Below the pieces are notes generated by a model. That model was not told where the DNA came from. It worked only from the letters and a program-made list of their open reading frames with translations, and did no database searches. From positions 372,001 through 436,000 of the forward strand of contig NZ_VUOE01000002.1 in the NCBI RefSeq assembly GCF_008386635.1: a stretch of DNA of 64,000 nucleotides, read 5' to 3'. Positions 7,809 to 45,055 of this stretch are shown here, in pieces. Position 1 is the first letter of the stretch. Each line of letters begins with the position of its first letter. A program made the position numbers and the translations under genes. The DNA comes from Maribacter flavus (lineage in GTDB: Bacteria; Bacteroidota; Bacteroidia; Flavobacteriales; Flavobacteriaceae).

Positions 7809-8606
7809 ATGAACGCACACGAAATAGATTACGAGATTTTTGGGGAAGAAATGCAATATGTGGAGATAGAGCTAGATCCGCAAGAGGCCGTCGTAGCCGA
7901 AGCCGGTAGCTTTATGATGATGGACACCGATATTAAGATGAATACCATTTTTGGGGACGGTAGCAACCAGGATAATAGCGTATTGGGTAAAATATTTTCG
8001 GCAGGTAAGCGCATGCTAACGGGTGAAAGCCTTTTTATGACCGCCTTCCTAAATATAGGTCAAGGTAAAAAGAAGGTGAGCTTTGCCTCTCCCTATCCCG
8101 GTAAAATTGTGCCCATCGACTTATCTGAACTGGGCGGCAGGTTCATTTGTCAAAAAGATGCCTTTTTATGTGCAGCTAAAGGCGTCTCTGTCGGAATTGA
8201 ATTCTCAAAACGATTGGGCCGCGGGCTCTTTGGGGGTGAAGGTTTCATTATGCAAAAATTGGAGGGCGACGGTATGACCTTCGTACATGCAGGGGGGACC
8301 TTGGCCAAAAAGACGTTGGGTCCCGGTGAGGTTTTAAAAGTCGATACCGGTTGTATCGTTGGGTTTACCAAGGATGTGGACTATGATATTGAATTTATCG
8401 GTGGGATACGAAATACCATTTTTGGCGGGGAAGGACTCTTTTTTGCTACCCTTAGGGGTCCGGGTACCGTATACATCCAATCCTTACCTTTCAGCCGACT
8501 GGCAGGTCGGGTATTGGCAGCAATCCCGCGAGGTGGCAAGGACAAGGGCGAAGGCAGTATCCTTGGTTCCTTAGGGGATTTGTTGGACGGGGATAACCGA
8601 TTTTAA
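7809..8606 (+). CDS. TIGR00266 / AIM24 family protein
   Basis: 265 aa, the usual family length. The family forms a tryptophan-RNA-binding-attenuator-like beta-barrel fold. Recognisable segments are the [12 protein letters not shown] start, the glycine-rich [15 protein letters not shown] centre, [13 protein letters not shown], and the end motif [15 protein letters not shown]. The biochemical role of bacterial members is unknown. It is preceded by a leader hairpin and followed by the low-complexity intergenic mosaic at 8607-8848. Confidence 0.9.
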
Positions 8607-8848
8607 AGTTCAAATACAAGCTCAAGAATCAAGTTCAAATTCAGTAAAAAGTTCAAGTTTTTTAGTTCAGAGTGCTGAGTGCAGAGTGCTGAGTAGTTTG
8701 TTTAGGCAGTTGGCAGTTGGCAGTTGGCAGTTGGCAGTAAACAATTATCAATTAGCAATAAATAGATATAAATTCAAGAATAGCGATCAGCGTATTGCGC
8801 ACAGCGTAAGTCCAAAATACAAACAACCAACAACGAACAACGAAACAA
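8607..8848. repeat. Low-complexity intergenic mosaic with a heptamer array
   Basis: The 242 bases hold no gene. They consist of variants of a few words: AAGTTCAAATTC/AAGTTCAAGTT (8630-8665), GAGTGCTGAGTGCAGAGTGCTGAG (8671-8694), a heptamer array at 8705-8739, and AACAACCAACAACGAACAAC (8822-8841). The same words, on the opposite strand, occur at 53672-53812, so these are related elements. Confidence 0.7.
8705..8739. repeat. Heptamer tandem array (GGCAGTT, ~5 units)
   Basis: Four perfect GGCAGTT units followed by a fifth ending in A. The 7-bp period is the same as in the GCTAAYT arrays at 19007 and 44918, although the unit differs. Confidence 0.9.
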
Positions 8849-9502
8849 GTGGATTTCAAAAACTTAATTACTTTTCTACAAGAACTCAACAAAAACAACA
8901 ATAAGGAATGGATGGATGCCAATAGAAAGTGGTATCACCAAGTTCGGAATGAATTCGTTGGATGGCTTGATGAACTGAACGATAATCTTCTACGGCAGTA
9001 TGATGATTATTATGATACGCCAGGTAAAAAGGGAATCAACCGTATCAATAATAATTTACTATATCATCCAAACCGACCCATTTATAAGGACCATTTTGGT
9101 GCCGGTTTGGATAAAAGGCCCAACACGGGCGATTTTTATATCGAAATTGGGATGGAGGAATCCATGTTCGCCGGAGGGTTATGGCGACCGGACCCCAAGA
9201 GATTGGCCAGCATTAGGGATGCCATCGACTATAATGGAGAAGAATTGGTCGACATTTTGGAAAAGCCTTCTTTTAAAAATGCCTTTGGAGGTTTGATAGA
9301 AGACGTAAAACTCACAAGGCCTCCCAAAGGTTTTTCTGAGGACCATCCCCATATCGATTTAATCAAACAAAAGACCTTTGCCGTGATGGCAAAATTTGAT
9401 AATACCTTGCTGTTTCAAGATAATTTTAACGAAAAGGTTTTCGGTGTCTATAAGGAAATGCTTCCCTTTCGAACATATCTTAACAAGGCCATTACCGTTT
9501 AA
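8849..9502 (+). CDS. DUF2461 (TIGR02453) family protein
   Basis: 217 aa, matching the family from its first residues: MDFKNLITFLQELNKNNNKEWMDANRKWY. The start is a GTG; the next in-frame ATG would remove the conserved N-terminus, so GTG is preferred. Further family features are NRINNNLLYHPNRPIYKDHF, the FYIEIGMEESMFAGGLWRPDP core and PKGFSEDHPHIDLIKQKTFA. No enzymatic function is established. Its stop is 3 bases from the convergent M81 gene. Confidence 0.88.
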   Translation: MDFKNLITFLQELNKNNNKEWMDANRKWYHQVRNEFVGWLDELNDNLLRQYDDYYDTPGKKGINRINNNLLYHPNRPIYKDHFGAGLDKRPNTGDFYIEIGMEESMFAGGLWRPDPKRLASIRDAIDYNGEELVDILEKPSFKNAFGGLIEDVKLTRPPKGFSEDHPHIDLIKQKTFAVMAKFDNTLLFQDNFNEKVFGVYKEMLPFRTYLNKAITV

Positions 9503-9505
9503 ATG

Positions 9506-11074
9506 CTATTCGTTGGAGGCCGGAATTAATCTTGCACTTAAATCCGGCGTTTCCATATCCGCATCCAAGGGAAACATGGGACGTTTGATATTTTTATACC
9601 CCAATCGTTCTAAATCCTGGTCCACGCCACCAGGTGTCAAGGCCATAATCCAATCACCCCGCATATCATATAGTTCAGGAACCAGATAACCTATCTTTAC
9701 TACGATAATGTCGGTCTCCATAGGGTTTAGGCCCAAATTGGTGAAATCACTTTTATGATGATAGGGTTTTCTTTTTTTAGTAACAATCACATGTACGCTT
9801 CCTACCTTGACCACAACTTCCACTTCAGCATCCCGGTCTCCCTCTTTTATTGATTCGATTGTTCCGGTGATTTCCAGGGGTGGGGCAAATCGGTCATCCA
9901 CTTCTGCTCCGGCGGTTGCACTTATTTTACCGCCAACGCCTACTTCCAGAGCTTTTTCCACCAATTGTGGCCCAGGAATAGAGGCATATATAATGGAAGG
10001 ATCATTTTCGGATTTAAATTCGGGCCGATTTAAAATCTGTTGCAAGGTCCATGTTACGTCACCTGCACCACCGGCCGTGGGATTATCACCCATGTCACTG
10101 ATCATAAAAGGTTTTTTTTCACTCTTAAGTGCCAATGCCAAACTTTCTTCCAGCGTACCCACAGGGGCTACAAATTCAAACTCGTTCCGAACTTCCCAAA
10201 AGGCATTTGCCAGCTTTTCAGCTCCTTGGGTCACCCTTTCTTTATCATCCCCTGTGACCATAACTACCGCATGGTTTCGTGGTTCATCTGCCCAGGCATA
10301 TCCGATCCAGATAGCCGCATCTATGACGCCCTCTTGGTCCGCGACTTCTGGAACTTTCGCATATAGACTTTTACCAGGTTCGATGCGGGTGCTTGTTTTT
10401 TCCCCTGGCAGTAAAATAGGAACGGGAATCCAAGCTTTATAGGCGGGTTTTCCTTTACCGTTTTCCAATCGTTCTAACAACAGGCGAACCGAACGTTCCT
10501 TGGACTCTAGGGCATCTTCATGAGGTGCCATTCTATAGCAAGTGATAAGGTCACTCTGTTTGGCCAAAGTTTCCGAAACATTACCGTGTAAATCCATGGA
10601 GGTTGAAATTAAAACGTCAGGGCCAACTACCTCTCGGATACGTGTAATTAAGTCACCCTCGGCATCCTCCATGCCAACAACGCTCATGGCGCCATGAATA
10701 TCGAACCAAACACCGTCATAAGGCATGCCCTCTTTCAACATTCTCACCGTTTTTTCTACCATGGATTCATAGGCCTCCCGCGTCACAATGCCTCCGGGAA
10801 GTGATTTTCCCAAGAGGGTAGGAACCCATTCCGCCCGCTTTCGAATATCGGTTTCAGCATCAAAAAAATGATATCTGCCAAAAATGGAATCCCCTATTTT
10901 GGCATGAAAGGCGGCTTCCCCCGTTTGGGCCGGGGAAAAGGTGCTGGATTCAATGCCAATACCGGCAATAGCGATTTTTGGCAGCTCCTTTTGTACTGTT
11001 TTCTTTTCGGATTGGTTTTTGCACCCTATAAAGCTAAAAAGGGAAAGGACAAATAAGAGGACAATTTTTTTCAT
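9506..11074 (-). CDS. M81 family metallopeptidase (MlrC-like) lipoprotein
   Basis: 522 aa. The N-terminus is a lipoprotein signal (SLFSFIGC, Cys ~18). Residues ~35-320 carry the MlrC N-terminal domain with the metal-site motifs GVWFDIHGAM and SMDLHGNVSE, plus the ITCYRMAPHEDA segment; the C-terminal MlrC_C domain starts near 320 (SDMGDNPTAGGAGD). MlrC of Sphingomonas hydrolyses linear microcystin fragments, but most homologues act on unknown small peptides or amides. The lipid anchor places this one in the periplasm or at the outer membrane. It is divergent from the GMC oxidoreductase. Confidence 0.85.
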   Translation of the reverse strand: MKKIVLLFVLSLFSFIGCKNQSEKKTVQKELPKIAIAGIGIESSTFSPAQTGEAAFHAKIGDSIFGRYHFFDAETDIRKRAEWVPTLLGKSLPGGIVTREAYESMVEKTVRMLKEGMPYDGVWFDIHGAMSVVGMEDAEGDLITRIREVVGPDVLISTSMDLHGNVSETLAKQSDLITCYRMAPHEDALESKERSVRLLLERLENGKGKPAYKAWIPVPILLPGEKTSTRIEPGKSLYAKVPEVADQEGVIDAAIWIGYAWADEPRNHAVVMVTGDDKERVTQGAEKLANAFWEVRNEFEFVAPVGTLEESLALALKSEKKPFMISDMGDNPTAGGAGDVTWTLQQILNRPEFKSENDPSIIYASIPGPQLVEKALEVGVGGKISATAGAEVDDRFAPPLEITGTIESIKEGDRDAEVEVVVKVGSVHVIVTKKRKPYHHKSDFTNLGLNPMETDIIVVKIGYLVPELYDMRGDWIMALTPGGVDQDLERLGYKNIKRPMFPLDADMETPDLSARLIPASNE

Positions 11075-11136
11075 ATGGGAATCTTAAGTTTCATTAAAAA
11101 TACCACTTATTTTCTTTTTTGCCGTATGCAGTTTTA

Positions 11137-11166
11137 TTGTCATATTCCTGATTAATCCTATCTTTA
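11137..11166 (+). promoter_or_regulatory. Candidate promoter of the GMC/subunit-3 operon
   Basis: TTG at 11137-11139 and TATCTTTA at 11159-11166 (TAnnTTTG with one mismatch), 19 bases apart, about 22 bases upstream of the ATG at 11188. Confidence 0.35.
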
Positions 11167-11187
11167 TTGGGTTAACTTATATTTTTT

Positions 11188-12888
11188 ATGGCCAATTTTA
11201 ATATAGACGCAAAAAAGGACATGACCTATGATGCCATTGTTGTGGGATCAGGAATCAGTGGAGGATGGGCAGCAAAGGAACTTTGTGAAAAGGGACTAAA
11301 AACCTTGGTATTGGAAAGAGGACCTATCGTTGAACATGTGGTGGATTACCCTACCATGAATTGGGATCCTTGGGATATGGAATATAGGGGAGGTCTTACT
11401 CCTGAAGAAAAAAAGAAGCATTACAAGAACATCCGATCAGGATGGGTGGGCAAGGATACCGAACATTTTTGGGCGGATGATGAAGCCAATCCTTATACGG
11501 AAGAGAAGCCGTTTTTATGGTTGAGGGGTCACCAAATGGGAGGTAAATCCCTTCTTTGGGGTAAACAGACGTATCGTTGGAGCGATTTGGACTTTGAGGC
11601 CAATGCAAAAGATGGTCACGGTGTAGACTGGCCTATACGATATAAGGATATTGAACCTTGGTACACGTATGTGGAGAAATTTGCGGGAATTAGTGGGGAA
11701 GCCTTAGGATTACCACAATTACCCGATAGTCATTTTCTTCCTCCCATGGAACTGAACTGTGTGGAAAAACATGTTAAGGAACGAATAGAAAAGAATTTTG
11801 AAGGTAGAAACATGATTATTGGTAGGGTTGCCCATTTGACCCAGCCCCATAATGGAAGGGGACAGTGCCAAAACCGTAATCGATGTAGTAGGGGATGTCC
11901 TTATGGAGCCTACTTCAGTAGTAATGCGGTTACCTTGCCAGCGGCGAATGCCACGGGGAATTTGACCATTAGGCCTTACTCTATTGTACAAGAGGTAATT
12001 TATGATGACGCCAAAGGAAAGGCTACAGGCGTTCGGGTCATTGACGCGGAAACGAGTGAAGTCATTGAATTCAACTCCAAGATTATCTTCGTAAACGCCT
12101 CGGCCTTGAGTACCGCCCATATTTTGATGAACTCGAAATCCAAGCGTTTTGAGAACGGTTTGGGCAATGATAGCGGAGAATTGGGTCATAACTTAATGGA
12201 TCATACTTACAGGGTTGGTGCCATAGGTAAGGTTGAAGGTTTTGAGGATAAATACTACAAGGGAAGAAGGCCAAATGGTATCTATATCCCTAGATATGTA
12301 AATATTGATGAAAAATCTAAATCGGATAAGTTTGTACGTGGATTCGGTTTCCAAGGTAGTGGTTACCGTGGAGGCAATCCGGCGAATATAGAATCCTTTG
12401 GGGCCGACTTTAAGGACAGTATATTGAAGCCGGGCGGTTGGGAATTCTTCATTACCGGTTTTGCGGAATGTCTACCGTATCATGACAACAAAATCAGTCT
12501 TAATAAAGATGTGTTGGATAAATGGGGGCAACCTACCTTGACCATAGATGCCGAATTTAAGGAGAACGAAAAGGCCTTGAACAAGCAGATTCAGGAGGAC
12601 GCAGTTGAAATGTTGGAAACAGCCGGACTCAAAGATGTAATGGGATTTGATAAGGAACACCCGCCAGGATATGGAGTACATGAAATGGGAACTGCAAGAA
12701 TGGGTAGGGACCCAAAAACGTCCGTACTTAATGGATTTAATCAGGTACATGCGGCCAAAAACGTCTTTGTAACGGATGGCGCGTGCATGACTTCCTCGTC
12801 TTGTGTGAATCCATCATTGACCTATATGGCCCTGACAGCAAGAGCGGCCGATCATGCAGTATCCGAATTGAAAAAATTTAATATCTAA
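11188..12888 (+). CDS. GMC family oxidoreductase with Fe-S cysteine motif
   Basis: 566 aa. FAD-binding Rossmann motif VGSGISGG at residues ~16-23; GHQMGGKSLLWGKQTYR binds the flavin; the C-terminus has the GMC active-site residues in GYGVHEMGTAR (His) and SCVNPSLT (Asn). Cys227, Cys233 and Cys237 form C-x5-C-x3-C followed by PYGA, the arrangement of the 3Fe-4S ligands in FAD-dependent glucose dehydrogenase catalytic subunits. It has no signal peptide; the next gene, 4 bases away, encodes the Tat-signal subunit on which such proteins are exported. The likely reaction is dehydrogenation of a sugar or polyol in the periplasm. No cytochrome partner is encoded nearby. Confidence 0.9.
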   Translation: MANFNIDAKKDMTYDAIVVGSGISGGWAAKELCEKGLKTLVLERGPIVEHVVDYPTMNWDPWDMEYRGGLTPEEKKKHYKNIRSGWVGKDTEHFWADDEANPYTEEKPFLWLRGHQMGGKSLLWGKQTYRWSDLDFEANAKDGHGVDWPIRYKDIEPWYTYVEKFAGISGEALGLPQLPDSHFLPPMELNCVEKHVKERIEKNFEGRNMIIGRVAHLTQPHNGRGQCQNRNRCSRGCPYGAYFSSNAVTLPAANATGNLTIRPYSIVQEVIYDDAKGKATGVRVIDAETSEVIEFNSKIIFVNASALSTAHILMNSKSKRFENGLGNDSGELGHNLMDHTYRVGAIGKVEGFEDKYYKGRRPNGIYIPRYVNIDEKSKSDKFVRGFGFQGSGYRGGNPANIESFGADFKDSILKPGGWEFFITGFAECLPYHDNKISLNKDVLDKWGQPTLTIDAEFKENEKALNKQIQEDAVEMLETAGLKDVMGFDKEHPPGYGVHEMGTARMGRDPKTSVLNGFNQVHAAKNVFVTDGACMTSSSCVNPSLTYMALTARAADHAVSELKKFNI

Positions 12889-35706: not shown

Positions 35707-36026
35707 CTTATGTGCTACCAAATTAAAACTTTATTGGTCCTTAAACTCCCAATAAACTAGAGGTTTACTGAAACATCATCACCGAAAAAAATAGTTGTGC
35801 CGCTCCAATATACTTTTTAACAGGCCTTGTGAAAATCGACTTTGGTAACGAAAATGATGGTCCTTATTTTAGGATAACAAACCCTTTCCATAGAGCGTTG
35901 TAACACATTCAAATTATCACTTGCAAAAAATAAAATTTTGGGGATTTTGGAACTTTGTCCCTATATTTTGGCAGGAAATGTTGTGAAAACAAAAATTGGT
36001 TTAACAACATGGGATACGGCAAGAAA
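35707..36026. other. 320-bp intergenic region without a gene
   Basis: No open frame with a credible start was seen on either strand. An 8-bp hairpin (TTTATTGG/CCAATAAA, 35730-35756) follows the PepSY gene but has no T-run. The rest is AT-rich sequence and presumably holds the promoter of the DinB gene. Confidence 0.5.
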
Positions 36027-36494
36027 ATGACTCAGGCTGAACTTATAATTTTAAACCTTACGGAAATCCGGAGAAGAAGCATAAAGCTTTGGAAAGCACT
36101 TCCTGAACAGTATTACCGTTGGAAACCTGACGAAAGCGCGATGACCGCAATAGAAATGGTAAGACATGTTTTGGAAGCCGATTATGGGTGGAACATAATA
36201 ATCAACAATGGCTCCATGGCACATTATGAAACACCTTGGAAGCAACGCCCCTTCACTAGCCTTGCGGAAGAGCTAACTTTTGCCGAACCTTATAGAAATC
36301 AATTTTTAAAAAGTGTACGGCAATTTTCGGATACCGAATTAAGCGAATTCCAGGTAGTGCATCCGGGAAACGGGGAAAGAAAAGCCCTCGGAAAATATAT
36401 CTTACGGATTGGATACCACGAAGCTGTCCATGCCGGTCAATTTTTATCCTATTTAAGGGCCATGAATGTTGATAGGCCCCTAATATGGGACTAA
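36027..36494 (+). CDS. DinB family protein
   Basis: 155 aa from ATG 36027 (MTQAELIILNLTEIRRR); an ATG at 36009 is the alternative start. DinB bundle: KALPEQYYRWKPDESAMTAIEMVRHVLEADYGW, then LRIGYHEAVHAGQFLSYLR, giving His in RHVLEA and HEAVH as the metal triad. Probable metal-dependent transferase of unknown substrate. Confidence 0.82.
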   Translation: MTQAELIILNLTEIRRRSIKLWKALPEQYYRWKPDESAMTAIEMVRHVLEADYGWNIIINNGSMAHYETPWKQRPFTSLAEELTFAEPYRNQFLKSVRQFSDTELSEFQVVHPGNGERKALGKYILRIGYHEAVHAGQFLSYLRAMNVDRPLIWD

Positions 36495-36759
36495 GAGCAG
36501 AATAGACAATTGGAATAGAATCGATTTATGTACTATGTGATTTGTCCGCCTTTGGTATTTTTAATCTCTTCGTCTCCATATCAATTTACCTCTACCATAT
36601 TCATATCGAGTGCTGCTGAATACTAAATCCTCATTTCCAAAATGGAATGGGGAAATACCTTTTCAACTAGCGGTGTTATTTTCATATTATCGTTTCTAAA
36701 ATTCGGATCTAACGAATCAAAATCTGAATTATATTTGGAATCAACCTAAAACCATCCAA

Positions 36760-37137
36760 ATGGCAACCACAAAAACCAACAAAATCATCTTCTGGACCAC
36801 CACCATTATTATTTTTTTAATGGAAGGGGTCATGCCCGCACTGACTTCCCAAACCGAGCTCGCCAAGGAGGGTATACGACATTTGGGCTACCCGGAATAT
36901 TTTGGGAACGCTTTGGTCGTATTTAAGGTATTGGGAGCACTTACCTTGATCATTCCCCAAGTCCCTGCACGAATCAAGGAATGGGCCTATGCTGGATTTG
37001 CTTTCGACTTTATATTTGCCAGTATCAGCCATTTTGCCGTGGACGGTATGGATTTCCAATCCTTTTTCCCTCTAATAATTTTGGGAATACTGATCGCCTC
37101 TTACGTGTCCTTTCATAAACTTCAAAAAACCAATTAG
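36760..37137 (+). CDS. DoxX-like membrane protein
   Basis: 125 aa with four membrane helices (IIFWTTTIIIFLMEGVMPAL; GNALVVFKVLGALTLIIPQV; EWAYAGFAFDFIFASISHFAV; FFPLIILGILIASYVSF). The GxKxLGxLxL-like and WAYAGFAFD segments fit the DoxX-like (DUF4870-unrelated) subgroup. Free-standing; 265 non-coding bases precede it. Confidence 0.78.
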   Translation: MATTKTNKIIFWTTTIIIFLMEGVMPALTSQTELAKEGIRHLGYPEYFGNALVVFKVLGALTLIIPQVPARIKEWAYAGFAFDFIFASISHFAVDGMDFQSFFPLIILGILIASYVSFHKLQKTN

Positions 37138-37202
37138 CCGCAGCTTTTATTTTTTTTACTGTGCGGTTCGTCCTAAACAGCCTGCCCCCAAAGAGTATTT
37201 GA

Positions 37203-37330
37203 GCCTTTCGTTTTACTTCGTAAGTTGCGTTCAAAGAAAGTATATTTTCTTTTCACCCAATGCTCAAGGTAAACTAAAGTCGAAGGGGACTCAAAGGCAC
37301 ATATTTCCTCATTTTCATGCCAATAACCAA
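37203..37330. repeat. Intergenic repeat, copy A
   Basis: GCCTTTCG near 37203, then CTCAAGGTAAACTAAAGTCG (37263-37282) and AAGGCACATATTTCCTCATT. The central 65 bases closely match copy C (39553-39618). Located between the DoxX-like and DUF2975 genes. Confidence 0.7.
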
Positions 37331-37437
37331 GCCAAGCCTAAAAGAATATCATTACTAGTATTTATCATAAAGTGAAAAATATTTATTGTTTATCAATAAA
37401 TAATTAGTTACTTTTATTCCATCTAATACTATTAATC

Positions 37438-37983
37438 ATGAAAACACGGGTTAAAGCAAAAAATCTCATATTTAAAGGTTTGAAAATCATTTCTTGGATA
37501 ATTTTTGTGGGGCTCTCGGTGGAAGCAGGTGGCCTAATCGTCAATTTTATTTTTAGTCTTCTCCGTCCAGAATTTATCCAGAACCTTTATCAGAAACTGG
37601 ATATGAGTCAGTTATATCAAAGTAGTAAGTTGGCTTTTTTTGGAATGTACGGGTTTGTTCTTACCGTATCCATATTAAAGGCCGTCCTATTCTACCAGGT
37701 TGTTTTATTGGTAACTAAAATTGACCTGCCCAAACCCTTCAATAGCTGGGTTTCCAAGCAAATTCTTAAGATAAGCTACTATACGCTCTCCGTTGGATTA
37801 TTAAGTTTTATTGCGAGGAAGTTGGCAATGGATTTGGGACACAATGGTTTTACATTGAATCAGTTGGATCCGTTTTGGGCAGACAGTCAGGCATTCATAT
37901 TGATGGCGGCCGTTATTTATATTATTGGAACAATATTTTCCAAAGGAGTGGAGTATCAAGAAGAACTGGAAGAAACGGTATAG
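37438..37983 (+). CDS. DUF2975 domain membrane protein
   Basis: 181 aa with four membrane helices (IISWIIFVGLSVEAGGLIVNF; FFGMYGFVLTVSILKAVLFY; YTLSVGLLSFIARKLAM; AFILMAAVIYIIGTIFSKG). The C-terminal FSKGVEYQEELEETV is a DUF2975 hallmark. Such proteins are encoded next to a YozG-like HTH repressor; here the HTH starts 3 bases downstream. Role unknown, thought to be membrane sensing or toxin-like behaviour. Confidence 0.88.
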   Translation: MKTRVKAKNLIFKGLKIISWIIFVGLSVEAGGLIVNFIFSLLRPEFIQNLYQKLDMSQLYQSSKLAFFGMYGFVLTVSILKAVLFYQVVLLVTKIDLPKPFNSWVSKQILKISYYTLSVGLLSFIARKLAMDLGHNGFTLNQLDPFWADSQAFILMAAVIYIIGTIFSKGVEYQEELEETV

Positions 37984-37986
37984 ACT

Positions 37987-38193
37987 ATGGCAATTATTGT
38001 AAACTTGGATGTAATGATGGCAAAGCGTAAAATGTCGCTTAATGAATTGTCCGAAACGGTCAATATTACCTTGGCGAATCTATCCAAACTTAAAACAGGG
38101 AAAGTCAAGGCCATTAGGTTTAGCACATTGGAAGCCGTTTGTGAGGCTTTGGATTGCCAACCTGGGGACCTGTTGGAATACTCAAAGGAATAA
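37987..38193 (+). CDS. YozG-like HTH (Cro/CI-type) regulator
   Basis: 68 aa, a single Cro/CI helix-turn-helix: MMAKRKMSLNELSETVNIT, LANLSKLKTGKVKAIRFSTL, and the family's end ALDCQPGDLLEYSKE. Immediately follows DUF2975 (3-base gap), the usual order. Probably regulates the pair. Confidence 0.92.
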   Translation: MAIIVNLDVMMAKRKMSLNELSETVNITLANLSKLKTGKVKAIRFSTLEAVCEALDCQPGDLLEYSKE

Positions 38194-38310
38194 CAATCCA
38201 TATTAATTAAATTTTTGCAGTTGTTATATTAATTGATAAATGAGCAGAATGCCCAATCAGCCCATACTAAAATTCATTAACTTATCAGGTTACTAAGCAG
38301 CTCATCTAGG

Positions 38311-38410
38311 GCCTTTCGACAAAGCTTAGGTAAACAAAGGTCGAAATGGAGTTGAAGACACATAGTCCCCCTTTTTCTTGACCAAATCATTTTTTTGTAG
38401 AATTTTAGAA
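38311..38410. repeat. Intergenic repeat, copy B
   Basis: GCCTTTCGACAAAGCTTAGG, then TAAACAAAGGTCGAAATGGA, CACATAGTCCCCCTTTTTCT and ATCATTTTTTTGTAGAATTT. Matches copies A and C over ~100 bases with substitutions; directly precedes the VOC gene. Confidence 0.7.
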
Positions 38411-38467
38411 GATTCCCGTAGGAGACCACTAATTTTAATGTGGCCCATACTGGTTAAACAAAAACAC

Positions 38468-38863
38468 ATGAAATACGCCTATACGATACTTTATGTTAAG
38501 AACGTTTCCAAAACCCTTGAATTCTATGAAAGCGCCTTTGGCTTTGCCCGTAAATTTGTAACACCTGAACATGATTATGGTGAATTGATTTCCGGCGAAA
38601 CCACCATCGCCTTTGCTTCAGAGGAACTTGGTAATTCCAATTTTAAAAATGGATTTCAAAAGATAGTGAAAGACAAAAAGCCCATGGGTGCGGAGTTGGT
38701 GTTTACTACGGAAACAATTGAGGAGGATTTTAAAAATGCGCTAGCATCAGGAGCAACGGAATATGAACCAATTATTGAAAAACCTTGGGGGCAAAAGGTA
38801 GGGTATGTACGAGACAATAACGGATTTCTTATTGAAATCTGTACGCCAATTAATAGCGATTAA
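38468..38863 (+). CDS. VOC family protein (glyoxalase/bleomycin-resistance fold)
   Basis: 131 aa from ATG 38468 (MKYAYTILYVKNVSKTLEFYESAFG); 30 upstream in-frame codons come from the repeat and are rejected. Paired beta-alpha-beta-beta-beta units; C-terminal GYVRDNNGFLIEICTPI supplies the last metal-site Glu. Substrate unknown. Confidence 0.88.
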   Translation: MKYAYTILYVKNVSKTLEFYESAFGFARKFVTPEHDYGELISGETTIAFASEELGNSNFKNGFQKIVKDKKPMGAELVFTTETIEEDFKNALASGATEYEPIIEKPWGQKVGYVRDNNGFLIEICTPINSD

Positions 38864-38930
38864 CGCATTATATTCAAAGCCTTACTGTAGATATAGATTG
38901 CCGAATACCTAGCGGAGATTGACCCATCTA

Positions 38931-38956
38931 TTCGCCCTTTTCCTTGCCGAGGTAAA
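38931..38956. repeat. Partial intergenic repeat, copy D
   Basis: TTCGCCCTTTTCCTTGCCGA matches only the right half of copies B and C. Located before the third DinB gene. Confidence 0.45.
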
Positions 38957-39009
38957 TAATTTATTCGAATTTTAGCGAAGAGGTGCTGCCCGAAAGTTTG
39001 TTTTATGAA

Positions 39010-39522
39010 ATGAAGGCAACACACTCAATAGGAATAGCTAATAATCATAACATGGCGAGGAATAAGGAATTGGCCGATAGGCTAGCAGAAGTGCTTCTAA
39101 GCGGCCGATGGGTTGCAAATACCAATTACAAGGAGCTATTGGAGAATCTGACCTGGAAACAGGCAACTCAAAAAATAGGGGGACTGAATTCGATTGCCGC
39201 GCTTACCTATCATGTGAATTATTATATAGGCGGTATGCTGCCTGTCTTGAAAGGAGGTTCACTTGAAATCCGTGACAAATTCAGTTTTCAGCTTCCTAAA
39301 TTAGAATCCCAAGTCGATTGGGAACGAATGACAACCGAGTTCATTACAAATTCAAAGGCCTTTGTGGAAGCGGTTTCCAATCTCCCTGAGACCCAACTGG
39401 ATGCAGTTTTTGTAGACGAAAAATACGGTACGTATGCCAGAAACATTGAAGGCCTGATCGAGCATTGCTATTACCATCTTGGTCAAATTTCCTTGCTTAA
39501 AAAGATGATTACAAATAGGTGA
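39010..39522 (+). CDS. DinB family protein (DUF1572-like)
   Basis: 170 aa from ATG 39010; a GTG at 38983 and an ATG at 39052 are alternatives. DinB features: IGGLNSIAALTYHVNYYIGGML and GLIEHCYYHLGQISLLKKM, giving His residues in TYHVNYY and EHCYYHLGQ as the metal triad. Sits between repeat copies D and C. Confidence 0.8.
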   Translation: MKATHSIGIANNHNMARNKELADRLAEVLLSGRWVANTNYKELLENLTWKQATQKIGGLNSIAALTYHVNYYIGGMLPVLKGGSLEIRDKFSFQLPKLESQVDWERMTTEFITNSKAFVEAVSNLPETQLDAVFVDEKYGTYARNIEGLIEHCYYHLGQISLLKKMITNR

Positions 39523-39540
39523 CCGAGTAGCCCTCCCTGA

Positions 39541-39640
39541 GCCTTTCAGTTATACTCAAGATAAACTAAAGTCGAAGGGGAGCCGAAGGCACATATTTCC
39601 CCTTTTCCTTGCCCAAATCATTTTTTTATAAGACTTTTAA
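39541..39640. repeat. Intergenic repeat, copy C
   Basis: GCCTTTCAGTTATACTCAAG, then TAAACTAAAGTCGAAGGGGA, AAGGCACATATTTCCCCTTT, CCCAAATCATTTTTTTATAA. The best preserved copy; marks the left edge of the AT-rich block. Confidence 0.7.
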
Positions 39641-39716
39641 AGTACTTCCCTCTAAAATAGAAATAAACGTAGTTAGGTAAGTTTATACAATTGTTGTAAA
39701 ACATTTTGACAGAATT

Positions 39717-40184
39717 ATGAATAAATTTATTTTAATAACCAGCATTTTATTTTTAACAACTTCTAAAAGTTTTTGTCAAAATGAGACAAGATTATTAGGG
39801 TTTAATGACTTTAATTCAAATTCATTTGCATTTATTGAATTTATTAAGAACCATCCAGAATCTGATGACTTGACAAAATGGTACGAAGGAAAAATAAATG
39901 AAAGACTTACCAAAAACCTAAACGAATTAAATCAGATTGCAAAAAAATATCCTCAAAAATTAGAAATAACGGTTATCCCTTTTGGCGATAAACCCGAAAA
40001 GAATAATCCTTTGTTTATTATCTATCGATTGGTAGATATAAAAGAAAATATAGAATTGAGCATTTTATTGCGCTATGCAAAAGACGGTAATTTACTTATA
40101 GACGGCCTTGAAGTCGTAAATCTTACAGAACTTTTAAAAGACTCTATTCGAAATCCGCCACCTGAGCCACCAAATAGGAACTGA
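39717..40184 (+). CDS. Secreted protein of unknown function, AT-rich
   Basis: 155 aa. Signal peptide residues 1-20 (TSKSFCQ). Mature part: helical FAFIEFIKNHPESDDLTKWYEGKINERL, then strands IEITVIPFGDKP and PLFIIYRLVDIKEN, and a proline-rich end. Codons are markedly A/T-ending compared with the flanking core genes. No family recognised. First gene of the AT-rich block 39.7-41.9 kb. Confidence 0.65.
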   Translation: MNKFILITSILFLTTSKSFCQNETRLLGFNDFNSNSFAFIEFIKNHPESDDLTKWYEGKINERLTKNLNELNQIAKKYPQKLEITVIPFGDKPEKNNPLFIIYRLVDIKENIELSILLRYAKDGNLLIDGLEVVNLTELLKDSIRNPPPEPPNRN

Positions 40185-40244
40185 AACAAATAACGTTGCC
40201 TAATATCTTATCCAAATAGTCATAAATAAGCACTTAAATAATTT

Positions 40245-40901
40245 ATGAAAACACAATTGACAATATTTCTTTTATTGTTTTGTCTTGAGGCTTTCTCTCA
40301 GGAAGTAAAAATCATTGAAGCTACCCAAAATAAAGACACTCAATTTTTTGAGAATGAGGACTACGATGAAAATGAAAGACCAATTGGAAAACTCTTGTTT
40401 TTAAAAGGTTGTAATTGGTAATGCGGTGGCTCTGTAAAGTCCATAACAGCATCATCTGAATTAAAGAAATCTAACGATATAAATTACTCTGCTAAAAACG
40501 CTCACGATTTTAATAAAAATACGGCTTGGATTGAAGGAAAACCTGACTACGGAATTGGAGAATATATAGAATACACTTTTTATTTCAGTGGCAAAGAAGG
40601 TTACAATACAACATTAGGAATTAATAAATTATTAATAGCTAACGGATATAAAAAAAGCCTTGAAACTTGGCAAAATAATTCAAGAATTAAACAGCTGAAA
40701 CTATTTCTGAATGACAAACCCTATGCAATTCTAAATCTTTTAGATTCGTTTGAAATTCAAACTATCGATATTGGTGATCTAACATTTCCATTAAATAAAG
40801 AAACCAAACTAAAGTTTGAGATAACTCAAGTCTACGAAGGTTCAAAATATAAAGACACAGCTTTAAGTCTATTGATGTTTGAGGGTTTTGGAGTGCATTA
40901 A
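40245..40901 (+). pseudogene. Secreted NADase-type glycan-binding-like protein interrupted by TAA
   Basis: ATG at 40245 opens a 219-codon frame with one in-frame stop, TAA at 40419-40421 (codon 59). Signal peptide residues 1-19 (CLEAFSQ). Immediately around the stop the frame reads LKGCNW-stop-CGGSVKSITASS, and it continues uninterrupted to a stop at 40899-40901 with a coherent beta-rich domain (AHDFNKNTAWIEGKPDYGIG, EYIEYTFYFS, LKLFLNDKP). The DFNKNTAWIEG motif is that of discoidin-like NADase-type glycan-binding proteins. The frame is preserved, so this is a single nonsense change (from a Tyr codon, by inference) or a base error. Confidence 0.8.
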
Positions 40902-40918
40902 CCGAACAACCGAATTTT

Positions 40919-41206
40919 ATGAAAAACAAAAAAACTATAGTTTATATTTTACTTGGTTTACCACTAATAATTTACCCGTTTATTTTATTAGCTAACGTAA
41001 TGAGTGCTGCAGGTTTTCCAAGCAAAACATCTGAATTTAAGTTATTTGTAGTCAACGGATTCCTTTGGTCAAGTTCGTTATACCCTATTTCCTACATATT
41101 ATCTCTTTTACCATTTATTAGAAGAAGAAAATATGGATTTCTATTGCCTTTAACTCATATAATTATTGCAATTGTATTTTTTGTTTTATGGACATATTTA
41201 GGATAA
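40919..41206 (+). CDS. Small membrane protein of unknown function
   Basis: 95 aa with three hydrophobic segments (IVYILLGLPLIIYPFILLA; LYPISYILSLLPFI; LPLTHIIIAIVFFVLWTYL) and basic RRRKYG between the last two. Starts 17 bases after the pseudogene, so probably the same transcript. No family recognised; AT-rich. Confidence 0.65.
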   Translation: MKNKKTIVYILLGLPLIIYPFILLANVMSAAGFPSKTSEFKLFVVNGFLWSSSLYPISYILSLLPFIRRRKYGFLLPLTHIIIAIVFFVLWTYLG

Positions 41207-41213
41207 TTAAAAA

Positions 41214-41370
41214 ACGTTTTACAACAATGTATAACCACAATTACGCCGTTTTCGACTACTTCCGAATCCACTCGGAAAATCTAAAGTTTTTGCCAAACCG
41301 AAAATTAACTCATATTAACCGGTCACTAAAGGTTTTACGAGACAGTTCGGTGTAAAACAGACCTCAAATT
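41214..41370. repeat. Structured intergenic element downstream of the small membrane protein
   Basis: Begins AACGTTTTACAACAATGT. Nested pairings: TTCCGA/TCGGAA (41260-41277) and ACCGAA/TTCGGT (41297-41302 with 41346-41351). A shorter AACGTT-starting sequence follows the stop at 40184. I recall similar sequences after small accessory genes in Flavobacteriia; a cassette-boundary role is speculative. Confidence 0.4.
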
Positions 41371-41419
41371 TTTTCAAAAACATTAGAATTAAGGCGATAA
41401 AAATTAAAAAAACGAAATC

Positions 41420-41872
41420 ATGAAAAAGATTTTTTTTCTATTGCTATTTGTGTCCATACCAACACTTCTATTCTCTCAATTAAATGATAATGGAAAATCG
41501 AGCAAAACCTCAAGCAAAGGAAAAGGGTATCCAGAATTCAAAAATACTTTGATGTATTATTCCCATATTCCATATAGTCCATATGGCATTAAGTATTCAT
41601 ATTGTAAATCTTGGGGATTTTATGTAAGTGCAACATATGATTTTGAAACGGTGGATGGCGATGCATTTCTAAATGCTGGCGTCGTTAAATCTATTACTAA
41701 CAAATTACGTGGTTATCTTGGCTCAGGTTATAATCCTCTTTGGAATGAGGCCAGCGTAGAAACTGGGGTAACTTTCGTTTTTGGTAATTTTGCTTTGGAT
41801 ACAGGAGGAGGGTTTAACTTTGTTGAACCTGAATATAGTTACATAAATTTAGGGGTTGGTTTTAATTTCTAA
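41420..41872 (+). CDS. Secreted outer-membrane-type protein of unknown function
   Basis: 150 aa. Signal peptide residues 1-19 (PTLLFSQ). Mature part is Ser/Lys-rich then rich in aromatic/glycine strands (KSWGFYVSATYDFETVDGD, GVTFVFGNFALDTGGGFNF) ending NLGVGFNF, typical of small outer-membrane beta-barrels with a terminal Phe. No family recognised. Ends the AT-rich block. Confidence 0.7.
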   Translation: MKKIFFLLLFVSIPTLLFSQLNDNGKSSKTSSKGKGYPEFKNTLMYYSHIPYSPYGIKYSYCKSWGFYVSATYDFETVDGDAFLNAGVVKSITNKLRGYLGSGYNPLWNEASVETGVTFVFGNFALDTGGGFNFVEPEYSYINLGVGFNF

Positions 41873-41926
41873 CCGATAGTTGCACCTAAAACTTTGTTTT
41901 TAAAATCCTCAATTTTATATCTAAAT

Positions 41927-42763
41927 TCATTCCATCCCCAACTCCGCCAACACCGGTAAATGATCCGAGATATGTTTGTTGTTTTCCATTCGGTCATCAA
42001 TATGGAGGTAGCGTTGCACCTCTAAATTTTCCACAAAAATATAGTCAATACGCCGGTCCAAGACCATATCCGGGTCAAAGCCGTTAAAGGTACCTGTAGG
42101 GCCATAAAAAGGCGCTTGGGTGGCTTGCTGCCCGTCCGTAAGCTCCCGTTGCATTAATTGTATGGGTTCGGAGTCCGGCTCCAAATTAAAATCCCCCGTC
42201 ACCACCACGGGCAAGTTTTGGGTATTGACCGCCTTGATCTTTTGTAAGATGAGGTTCACGCTCTGCTTTCGGGCTTCGGTGCCTACATGGTCAAAATGGG
42301 TATTGAATACATAGAGTTCCTTCCCGCTTTGTATGTCCTTGAACCTTCCGTAAGTACAGATACGCTCCAAGGCGGCATCCCAACCTTTAGAAACTTTTTC
42401 CGGGGTGGGGGAGAGCCAAAAGGTATTGGCGCTTATCAGTTCAAAATGTTGACTATTGTACAAAATAGGGGAGTACTCGCCCTTTTGTTTGCCATCGTCC
42501 CGGCCTACGCCAATATAACTGTAATCCGGTAGGTGCTCGTCCAGATAGTCCAACTGGTTAAGCAAAACCTCCTGCATGCCTACAAATTGGGGGCCATAGT
42601 GTTGCAAAAGCCGCACCATAGCCTCCTTTCTAAAATTCCAGTTGTTTACGGTATCGTTGACGTTGTCATACTTGATGTTGTAGGACATCACTTTGAATTC
42701 CTGTGCCTGTCCAACTACAGCCATACATACCGTAAAAACCACAAAAAATATATTTCTCATCAT
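41927..42763 (-). CDS. Endonuclease/exonuclease/phosphatase family protein, secreted
   Basis: 278 aa. Signal peptide ~1-20 (VVGQAQ). EEP fold motifs: MSYNIKYDNVNDTVNNW, QEVLLNQLDYL (metal Glu), NTHFDHVG, VVTGDFNLEPDS and a C-terminal SDHLP (catalytic His). Members hydrolyse phosphodiesters, sphingomyelin or inositol phosphates. Its start lies 10 bases after the S9 peptidase stop, so the two are co-transcribed. Confidence 0.88.
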   Translation of the reverse strand: MMRNIFFVVFTVCMAVVGQAQEFKVMSYNIKYDNVNDTVNNWNFRKEAMVRLLQHYGPQFVGMQEVLLNQLDYLDEHLPDYSYIGVGRDDGKQKGEYSPILYNSQHFELISANTFWLSPTPEKVSKGWDAALERICTYGRFKDIQSGKELYVFNTHFDHVGTEARKQSVNLILQKIKAVNTQNLPVVVTGDFNLEPDSEPIQLMQRELTDGQQATQAPFYGPTGTFNGFDPDMVLDRRIDYIFVENLEVQRYLHIDDRMENNKHISDHLPVLAELGME

Positions 42764-42773
42764 TGTCGCAAGA

Positions 42774-44798
42774 CTAATCTGTTTTGTATTTGTTGAACCA
42801 TGCCAATACCGAGGCTATTTTCGCGACCAAATTGCTGGGTCGGTTCGCAATGCCATGTCCGGAACCGGGAATACGTACCATGGCGGTTTCAACACCTTCC
42901 AACTTTAATGCCGTATAGAATTGCTCCGATTCCGCAATGGGGGTTCTATAGTCTTCCTCTCCCGTCAGCAACATGGTTGGGGTGGTCACATTCCCGACAT
43001 AATTTAGCGGTGAGCGTCTAAAATAGTTTTCCGGGTCTTCCCAAGGTTTCTTCCCGAACCAGTATTTTGAGAAGAAAGCAGGACTGTCCGCATAGAGTAC
43101 AAAACTCGTCCAGTTGATGACGGGCTTGGCTACCACGGCGGCCTTAAAGCGGTCCGTTTTGCCCACGATCCACGCCGTCAATACGCCGCCACCGCTACCA
43201 CCGGTCACAAACAGGTTATTGGTATCCACATAGCCTTTGGCGATAACAGCGTCCACACCGCTCATTAAATCCTCATAATCATGGTTGGGATAATCGTGGT
43301 GGATGAGGTTCCCGAATTCCGCCCCGTAACTGGTACTCCCACGCGGATTAGAATACAACACCACGTAGCCTGCTGCGGAATAGGCCTGAATCTCGGCACT
43401 ATAGACGGAACCATAGCTTTGGAAGGGTCCACCATGTATTTCTAGGATAAAGGGATATTTTTTGTTCGGGTCAAAGTTGGGTGGGGTTACGATCCACCCT
43501 TGAATTTTTCGGTCATCGAAGGAGGAGTTCCACCAGATTTCCTCCACTTCGCCCACATTGCGGAAGGAAAATAAATCATCGTTCAAATAGGTAAGCCGTT
43601 TTGTTCCTTTTTTATCGGCTACGGCCAAATCGGACGGGTGTTGCGTGCTACCCAAGGTATAGGCAAAGGTACCTTTGTTGGACACGGTAAAGTCGGCCTG
43701 ATTATAAGGTCTTCCCAAGGAAAGTCCCCCAAGGCCTTCTGCGATGGTGGTGACTTTGCCATCCAACGTGATGTGTCCAATTTTGGAATCTCCTTCGGAA
43801 TCATACTGAAAATACAGCCCTTTTCCGTCCGCTGCCCATTGCACATTGCCAATGTCCCGGTCAAAATCGGCCGAAAGCAATCGGGAATTGCTACCATCAG
43901 TATTCATTACGTACAATTGGGTCAATTCATAGCCTTGAAAGGTATCGTCGTTCCCCGTGTAGGCAATCAGTGAACCGTCTGGAGAAAGGGTTGGGGAACC
44001 GTCGGGACCAAAGCGGTTAGTTAGCGCGGTTACGCTATTATCGCTAAGATCTAATTTATAGACCTCGGAGTTGGCCGGTTCAAAGGCTTCCTCGGGGTGG
44101 AAATTCGCGGAGAAATACAGGCTTTTGCCATCCTTGGACCATACTGGTGCACCATGATCAAATTCGGAGGAGGTCAACTGCTTTGGGGTACCGCCGTTGA
44201 TGGAAAGGATGAACAGTTGGTCGTTGCCGGCTTTTAAATAGCCCTGACCGTCCCCCCGATAATTCATTTTATCGATATAGGTAGGCGGGGTGTTCCATTT
44301 GGCACCTTCCGGTTTTGCGGGCATTTTAATGAGGGATACGTCCGTTGCAGGTACGAACATATTGAACGCCACATAGCGGTCATCGTGCGACCAGCTTACC
44401 GCTCCGGGCGCCTTTGGCGTATTGGTCAGAGGGGCCGTTTCCTTGGTATCCAGCCACATGAGATAGAGTTTCATTTTATCATCGGCCCTATTGGACTTAA
44501 AGATGATCTTTTTACCATCATGCGACCAACGGGGATAGTAATCGTTCTGGTTTCCGGTCGTTAAGGGTCGGTTTTGGCTCCCATCAAAATTCACGATCCA
44601 GAGGTTGGACAGGTTTTTGTCCGTCATGATATCCTTAAAGTTGCGCACGTAGATGATTTTAGAGCCATCGGGCGATATCTGGGGATCTGATACAAATTCG
44701 TATTCAAAGATATCCGTGAGTTCGAGGTTGGTTTTGGTCTGCGCCGATACGGTCGTTACACAGAGGAGAAGGGCGATTACGCCGATGCAATTTTTCAT
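42774..44798 (-). CDS. S9 family peptidase (prolyl oligopeptidase/dipeptidyl aminopeptidase type), secreted
   Basis: 674 aa. Signal peptide ~1-19 (VTTVSAQ). Seven-bladed WD40-like propeller ~30-400 with repeated SPDGSKIIYVRN, WSHDGKKIIFKSN-like blades. Catalytic alpha/beta domain with nucleophile Ser535 (TGGSGGG), Asp in TGEEDYRTP and His in GSGHGI. Removes dipeptides or cleaves after proline/alanine in the periplasm. First gene of a two-gene operon with the EEP protein. Confidence 0.92.
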   Translation of the reverse strand: MKNCIGVIALLLCVTTVSAQTKTNLELTDIFEYEFVSDPQISPDGSKIIYVRNFKDIMTDKNLSNLWIVNFDGSQNRPLTTGNQNDYYPRWSHDGKKIIFKSNRADDKMKLYLMWLDTKETAPLTNTPKAPGAVSWSHDDRYVAFNMFVPATDVSLIKMPAKPEGAKWNTPPTYIDKMNYRGDGQGYLKAGNDQLFILSINGGTPKQLTSSEFDHGAPVWSKDGKSLYFSANFHPEEAFEPANSEVYKLDLSDNSVTALTNRFGPDGSPTLSPDGSLIAYTGNDDTFQGYELTQLYVMNTDGSNSRLLSADFDRDIGNVQWAADGKGLYFQYDSEGDSKIGHITLDGKVTTIAEGLGGLSLGRPYNQADFTVSNKGTFAYTLGSTQHPSDLAVADKKGTKRLTYLNDDLFSFRNVGEVEEIWWNSSFDDRKIQGWIVTPPNFDPNKKYPFILEIHGGPFQSYGSVYSAEIQAYSAAGYVVLYSNPRGSTSYGAEFGNLIHHDYPNHDYEDLMSGVDAVIAKGYVDTNNLFVTGGSGGGVLTAWIVGKTDRFKAAVVAKPVINWTSFVLYADSPAFFSKYWFGKKPWEDPENYFRRSPLNYVGNVTTPTMLLTGEEDYRTPIAESEQFYTALKLEGVETAMVRIPGSGHGIANRPSNLVAKIASVLAWFNKYKTD

Positions 44799-44897
44799 AG
44801 TGTCGTTCTCATTTAGTTTGAAGCCTCAATGTAAGGATTTCATAGTGAAAAGTTTTAAGGGACTGGTTATAAGTTTTAACTGAAAAACTAAAAGTGA

Positions 44898-45055
44898 AAA
44901 ATGAAAAGTGTTTTTTTGCTAACTGCTAACTGCTAACTGCTAACTGCTAACTGCTAACTGCTAACTGCTAACTGCTAACTGCTAACTGCTAACTGCTAAC
45001 TGCTAACTGCTAACTGCTAACTGCTAACTGCTAACTGCTAATTGCCAACAACCAA
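44898..45055. repeat. Low-complexity element with an 18-unit GCTAAYT heptamer array
   Basis: Leader AAAATGAAAAGTGTTTTTTT, then seventeen GCTAACT units and one GCTAATT at 44918-45043 (126 bases), then TGCCAACAACCAACCCC. Leader and array start match the element at 18988-19041. It occupies the divergent upstream region between the S9 peptidase and the VOC gene. Confidence 0.95.

Follow-up and report, generated by a model that had tools for sequence, protein, structure and literature searches.

A secreted-protein gene interrupted by one stop codon within a putative integron-type cassette of Maribacter flavus

What does a single in-frame TAA mean in a gene that otherwise reads as whole, and what sort of DNA carries such a gene? 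Both questions are raised by positions 40245-40901 of the stretch analysed here (64,000 nucleotides of the Maribacter flavus genome, called the window below). One stop codon in a small secreted-protein gene is ordinary and of little weight alone. We believe, at a probability of roughly 0.8 and judging from sequence comparison, that a secreted-protein gene was broken by a recent stop or by a base error, and that it is the middle gene of a mobile integron-type cassette. A sequence-only reading made earlier had proposed one recently broken or misread gene and had named its family; this part held, and the integron-like cassette context was missed in it.

The interrupted gene and its homologues

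The plus-strand frame 40245-40901 comprises 219 codons, the terminal stop included, and its sole internal stop is codon 59 (TAA, 40419-40421), as had been read. In the list of open reading frames, the frame from 40245 gives a stub of 58 amino acids closed at this TAA. The gene as written yields only this stub, and the function of the protein would presumably be lost through the stop. A restart of translation after the TAA was considered and rejected, since no same-strand open reading frame of at least 50 amino acids restarts in the rest of the frame.

The 159 codons 3' of the stop match the Pfam family PF25302 (NADase_transloc) with 140.2 bits (cut-off 27, E 7e-41) and the NCBIfam family NF047619 (NADase_discoid) with 125.7 bits (cut-off 38); both matches are far beyond chance and bear out the earlier naming of the family as NADase-type glycan-binding. 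The domain has a single match in its own genome. The 58 amino acids 5' of the stop reach the cut-off of no Pfam family, yet they can be aligned with the N-termini of 11 homologues. In a PDB sequence search with the window protein, the sole match at E 0.01 is 7ji1_A, a weak one (E 4e-4). By homology, the window gene is a broken member of the NADase-type glycan-binding family; the best explanation of it is a small secreted protein with a signal peptide and one NADase-type glycan-binding, F5/8C-like domain. The term “glycan-binding” is taken from the NCBIfam record (NF047619), and for the window protein it is a prediction from sequence.

The alignment includes the window gene and 11 homologues from other Flavobacteriaceae, the more distant ones being excluded. 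All 11 are open at the column of the stop, where each has tyrosine within the motif GC(S/N)W-Y-CGG, and the cysteines on either side of it are kept in 11 of 11. This supports the claim that the parts before and after the stop are one gene, and the proposed search for tyrosine at this column gave the anticipated answer. The alternative that the homologues end at this position was rejected, as none of the 11 does. Eight more distant homologues (L040-L045, L052, L054) have the same ...SWYCG motif by eye; L002-L005, L035 and L046-L048 are without it, also by eye, and hence are uninformative on the stop column.

The scan of named genomes gave nine homologue loci, of which eight are at 72-76% identity (Tamlana, Aquimarina, Aequorivita, Tenacibaculum, two in Psychroflexus, Algibacter and a Flavobacteriaceae MAG) and one, a distant one, is in Fibrimonadales. 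Some homologue match is present in 18 of the 397 genomes of the family sample. A match of any kind is present in five of the 36 genomes of the genus, counting the own one, and the other four reach at best 40-43% identity; no close copy of the window gene was found in these 36 genomes.

No frameshift was found in the window copy on alignment with the homologues. For the part 3' of the stop, pn/ps is 0.204 when the window copy is compared with nine close relatives and 0.162 when these are compared with one another; the window copy differs at 8 of the 88 columns that are invariant among the nine (controls, 1-10). For the part 5' of the stop, the corresponding values are 0.390 and 0.242, and 4 of the 31 relative-invariant columns are changed (controls, 0-2), i.e., there is somewhat more change before the stop in the window copy than in the relatives. 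Because there is no frameshift and the domain 3' of the stop has kept its conservation, we conclude that the stop is young or is a base error. An old decayed gene is rejected on the same grounds, and here we agree with the sequence-only reading.

The TAA may be an error of sequencing or assembly, the gene being intact in the organism. It is the lone departure in an otherwise conserved, frameshift-free frame, which speaks for an error; however, the genome (6 contigs, 100% completeness, 0.66% contamination) is not a poor draft, a quality that leaves one wrong base possible. We regard such an error as possible, if rather unlikely. That the stop is read through or recoded, with the full protein made, we consider extremely improbable: conservation does persist beyond the stop, as this would demand, but the sense codon in 11 of 11 aligned homologues makes a conserved recoding signal not expected, and window frames such as 41420-41872 and 40919-41206 terminate in ordinary TAA. 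We keep to a secreted-protein gene broken recently or misread at one base, and turn to its surroundings.

The unit around the gene

The unit 39693-41347 holds three genes, with the broken one in the middle (Table 1), and positions 40001-42000 of the window are AT-rich (31% GC). Neither ORF 1 (39717..40184) nor ORF 3 (40919..41206) of the unit matches a Pfam family over the cut-off.

Table 1. Features at the interrupted gene (window positions).
Feature	Position	Strand	Evidence
attI-like sequence directly 5' of the cassette	39648..39692	+	similarity to attI-like references
cassette-like unit, core triplets included	39693..41347	+	complementary ends; different gene in G002
ORF 1 of the cassette, 155 aa, signal-peptide-like N-terminus (by eye)	39717..40184	+	
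broken gene, putative secreted protein with NADase-type glycan-binding domain	40245..40901	+	frame, profiles, homologues
internal TAA stop, codon 59	40419..40421	+	tyrosine sense codon in 11/11 aligned homologues
3' part with the domain, 159 codons plus terminal stop	40422..40901	+	PF25302 140.2 bits, NF047619 125.7 bits
ORF 3 of the cassette, resembling a membrane protein (by eye), 95 aa	40919..41206	+	
right cognate end AACGTTTTACAAC	41213..41225	+	complementary to the cassette start at 39693
attC-like element, AAC to GTT, dispersed genus repeat	41223..41347	+	model R1, 129.2 bits
neighbour gene outside the cassette, common to the sister species G002	41420..41872	+	

The start of the unit, GTTGTAAAACATT at 39693, is equal to the reverse complement of its other end, GTTGTAAAACGTT, in 11 of 12 positions, a value reached by 0.030 of 200 shuffles. 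By analogy with integrons, the joining point in the cassette would lie within GTT, between G and TT.

In the sister species (G002), the matching place is homologous up to window position 39658 and again from 41223 on. It carries the same element and right flank, but the gene to the left is another one (a 321-aa ORF), and the AAC core is exactly where the differing DNA stops. Such a difference in gene content at one chromosomal place may be taken as an indirect sign of cassette exchange. The DNA search of 39700-41400 in the 36 genomes of the genus gave a match in 21; in 20 of them, the own genome included, it is the element near 41223-41347, in many copies in some, and in G030 the match lies elsewhere. 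Copies of the element in the genus run from AAC to GTT and have unlike flanks.

The left border of the unit can be compared with the sequences that precede the first cassette of arrays. Similar sequences lie in this position 3' of the integrase genes of L064, L099, L110 and L118, and a variant of them at L105; integrases of other types have other sequences at the attI position (an integrase was assigned at 15 of the 16 loci). Before its GTT, the window has TCTAAAATAGAAATA...TTATACAATT, which ranks best of the 2245 GTT-ending 48-mers of the window against four of five references and second best against the fifth (L105); in this ranking the site is AT-rich, the AT-richness is uncorrected, and the references L064 and L099 are near-identical. 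No integrase gene was found in the window, and the integrase matches listed for the own genome lie outside it. Given the attI-like left border and this lack of an integrase gene, the window resembles an attI with one cassette and without an integrase of its own.

Two other explanations of the region were rejected: a tRNA-borne insertion, as the window has no tRNA, and a known RNA family, as a search of 35800-45000 against Rfam gave nothing at E 1. Repeats of other kinds are also seen. An intergenic repeat family of 62-84 nt lies 3' of small genes to the left of the cassette (37260-37321, 38321-38382, 39552-39613), and a similar sequence is found at the matching place in G002. A tandem 7-mer TGCTAAC, in about 18 copies, is intergenic at 44917-45042.

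The hairpin, the cassette ends and the integrases

The attC-like hairpin was described by a covariance model, R1, the E-values of which are rough. At E 1e-4 it matches 150 of 199 genomes of the family (149 of 198 genera) and at E 0.01 31 of the 36 genomes of the genus; in the phylum sample, 28 of 198 genomes have a match. In 148 model matches, aligned by a fit to the model itself, 711 cells are changed on both stem sides vs 214 in shuffles, and 89.1% of cells are paired vs 64.8% when shuffled (29-43% with the partner slid). In the alignment A1 of 30 copies, which is too uniform for covariation, 0 of 26 pairs are changed on both sides. The attC-like strand of the window, folded alone, gave z -0.37, no better than shuffles; as nothing special was seen, single folding was dropped as support. 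We presume that the attC-like hairpin folds as a single strand.

Next to homologues of the broken gene, R1 matches at E 1 or better were found at 6 of the 17 loci searched: on both sides in L036 and L033, behind the gene in L032, in front of it in L030 and L041, and weakly at L045 (E 0.06 in front, E 0.04 at 118 bp behind). The gene family has presumably spread as cassette cargo. The match in L032 (3244-3387, Psychroflexus gondwanensis) is a 172.9-bit copy of the genus-type element in another genus, and its similarity suggests exchange between genera.

For the genus, cassette ends were counted from 139 of the 148 R1 matches, nine weak or partial ones being excluded. In 77 units of the genus arrays, a start matches the unit's own end in 6.83 of 10 positions vs 3.67 with the end of another unit (control sd 0.18; highest of 1000 shuffles, 4.23). 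The value rises to 8.32 in the 37 units shorter than 1000 bp, and it is 4.03 for the two flanks of one element (114 sites). The G103 array gives 7.68 vs 3.63 shuffled (82 cassettes, sd 0.18), with 57 of the 82 reaching 8 of 10; the G147 array gives 6.04 vs 4.09 (55 cassettes, sd 0.17), with 15 of the 55 reaching it. When the ends were compared at 11 homologue loci, L031 and L033 had 11 of 12 (each reached by 0.005 of shuffles), and at the remaining nine loci the ends failed to beat 95% of shuffles. Ends that match their own partner and not others are the expected trace of a circular cassette carrying its own attC. The sequence GTTRRRY is found in 19 of 137 cassette starts and RYYYAAC in 22 of 137 ends; we take these two to be the canonical integron R box consensus. 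In the 137 cassettes only GTT and AAC hold, and both were required by the selection.

The counts of integrase neighbourhoods in the genus use 150 of the 201 R1 matches and, among the recombinase matches listed, 42 genes that are IntI-like (175 bits or more) and 65 that are Xer-like; recombinases in neither group were excluded. Among the matches listed, 17 of the 42 IntI-like genes lie within 10 kb of a listed repeat, and none of the 65 Xer-like controls does so within 15 kb. The nearest listed repeat points away from the integrase in 17 of 17, on its own strand in 13 and divergently in 4. The other 25 IntI-like genes, among them the two of the own genome, have no listed repeat within 10 kb. 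The excluded recombinases comprise eight matches in G007:C1, all at 146.8 bits and with 298-aa frames (e.g., 3814929-3815567 and 3594486-3595124), some of which lie about 0.3-1 kb from attC-like repeats; perhaps they belong to a mobile element using these sites.

Two arrays begin at an integrase and run on one strand: in G103, integrase L119 (16369-17478) is followed by 84 sites over 78 kb with a median spacing of 764, and in G147, L127 (18492-17404) by 57 sites. Two IntI-like recombinases, each about 380 aa long, are encoded in the own genome, at L063 and L064. In L064 the integrase (8529-9656) is followed by same-strand R1 matches at 10024, 10475, 10926, 11476 and 16497 (E 4e-5 to 1e-3). The stretch 9640-11992 (G000:C2, about 997640-999990) holds several near-identical cassette-like units of 451 bp that are without a plus-strand ORF of 60 aa, followed by one that encodes a member of the small multidrug resistance family (PF00893, 81.7 bits). 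This array is smaller and weaker-scoring than those of G103 and G147. In L063 a transposase gene (rve domain) lies directly behind the integrase, and a search of the 19 kb of this locus at E 0.1 gave no R1 match. Each of the two integrases lies opposite a small, cysteine-rich ORF that resembles a zinc ribbon and is read the other way (L063 10458-10835, L064 8075-8464), and one of these ORFs has weak YacG/DUF2116 matches below the cut-off.

One may object that the 126-bp repeats are ordinary dispersed repeats or small-transposon ends, in a gene cluster that is no more than a genomic island; the repeat is indeed dispersed, and in the genus many of its copies are far from any integrase. However, the complementarity of ends holds inside a unit and is not seen from one unit to another, the arrays are one-stranded and begin at integrases, and the different DNA of G002 ends exactly at the core triplet. 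We consider this explanation very unlikely, and prefer that of a mobile integron-type cassette. In the mechanism that we propose, a circular cassette would fold at its attC-like hairpin, and an integron-type tyrosine recombinase would join the folded circle to the attI-like site of this chromosome.

Relation to known systems

Could the unit and the repeats then belong to canonical integrons, either a CALIN or a chromosomal one that has degraded, with nothing new in kind? The layout, the AAC/GTT cores, the cognate ends and the attI-like site are all integron-like, and the family NF040815, “site-specific tyrosine recombinase/integron integrase” (cut-off 220 bits), is passed by L064 (243.6), L119 (220.9) and L127 (223.6), with L063 (212.9) just below. 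Against this, the integron integrase family TIGR02249 (cut-off 265 bits) is missed by all four integrases scored (L063 216.8, L064 212.6, L119 209.9, L127 206.0), and a canonical integron integrase was rejected for this reason; the search of the genus gave 0 of 36 genomes over the cut-off, and its controls gave no match either. When L064 (and not L119 or L127) was aligned with IntI4 (2a3v), 26 residues lay between two aligned stretches vs 68 in IntI4, i.e., L064 is about 42 residues shorter at this region, the missing part of which we take to be the IntI-specific insertion. Correspondingly, 25 and 21 codons stand against 67 and 63 profile positions in the integrase matches of the own genome. 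The best PDB sequence match of L064 is 4a8e (XerC-like), and profile matches start at residues 97-109, which leaves about 100 extra N-terminal residues. The departure of most cassette ends from the R box consensus also speaks against canonical integrons. We find membership in the canonical class unlikely and, comparing sequences and layout, read the system as an integron-like variant.

We think it likely that most Flavobacteriaceae carry an unrecognised integron class. Its integrase, of XerA/IntI-like type, would lack the IntI-specific insertion, and the attI would lie directly behind the integrase gene; the arrays would reach 84 cassettes or more, and the attC hairpins would have cassette-specific outer arms pairing over about 10 nt. 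This class would trade small accessory genes (e.g., those of secreted glycan-binding-type proteins) between genera. The window would be a small outlying example of it: an attI, one cassette and an attC with no integrase, the cassette being unlike that of the sister species at the same site. If so, large gene-capture platforms of its own exist in a major marine bacterial family to which the integron papers examined give hardly any mention, the IntI-specific insertion would seem not to be needed for a cassette system, and the movement of small accessory genes among flavobacteria would be in part explained. The model R1 would then allow such cassettes to be counted.

In the open-licence literature without preprints, we recognised no report of flavobacterial cassette arrays by title or the start of the abstract; an earlier description is possible. 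In the parts seen of PMC9668308 and PMC8618304, Bacteroidota are named only in lists of integron-bearing phyla, and in that of PMC8352920 taxon-specific attC models are given for 11 taxa, Bacteroidetes not among them. For Bacteroidetes, integrons have been reported (In0 elements; PMC9024848), and integron components occur in the wider phylum; the part of that paper seen does not mention flavobacterial arrays.

The broken gene is close to the NADase-type glycan-binding proteins: its domain is over both family cut-offs (PF25302, NF047619), and it can be aligned with intact members from flavobacteria at its N-terminus and over the CxWYCGG motif. It differs from them in the interruption at codon 59, by which the GC(S/N)WYCGG motif is not open; the protein is single-domain, and no enzyme domain was seen in it. 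The integrases of L064, L119 and L127 belong with NF040815 (XerA-type archaeal recombinase/integron integrase) by score, and differ from it in the additional N-terminal residues and in the tie to cassette arrays. With canonical integrons (chromosomal integrons, CALIN) the system shares a one-strand array starting beside a tyrosine recombinase, AAC/GTT cores, sites that may form hairpins, cognate cassette ends and an attI-like site after the integrase gene. Unlike them, it has integrases below the TIGR02249 cut-off, the one aligned (L064) being without the IntI-specific insertion, and R boxes that depart from GTTRRRY/RYYYAAC; the layout differs as well, with the nearest repeat divergent from the integrase in 4 of 17 platforms and on its strand in 13.
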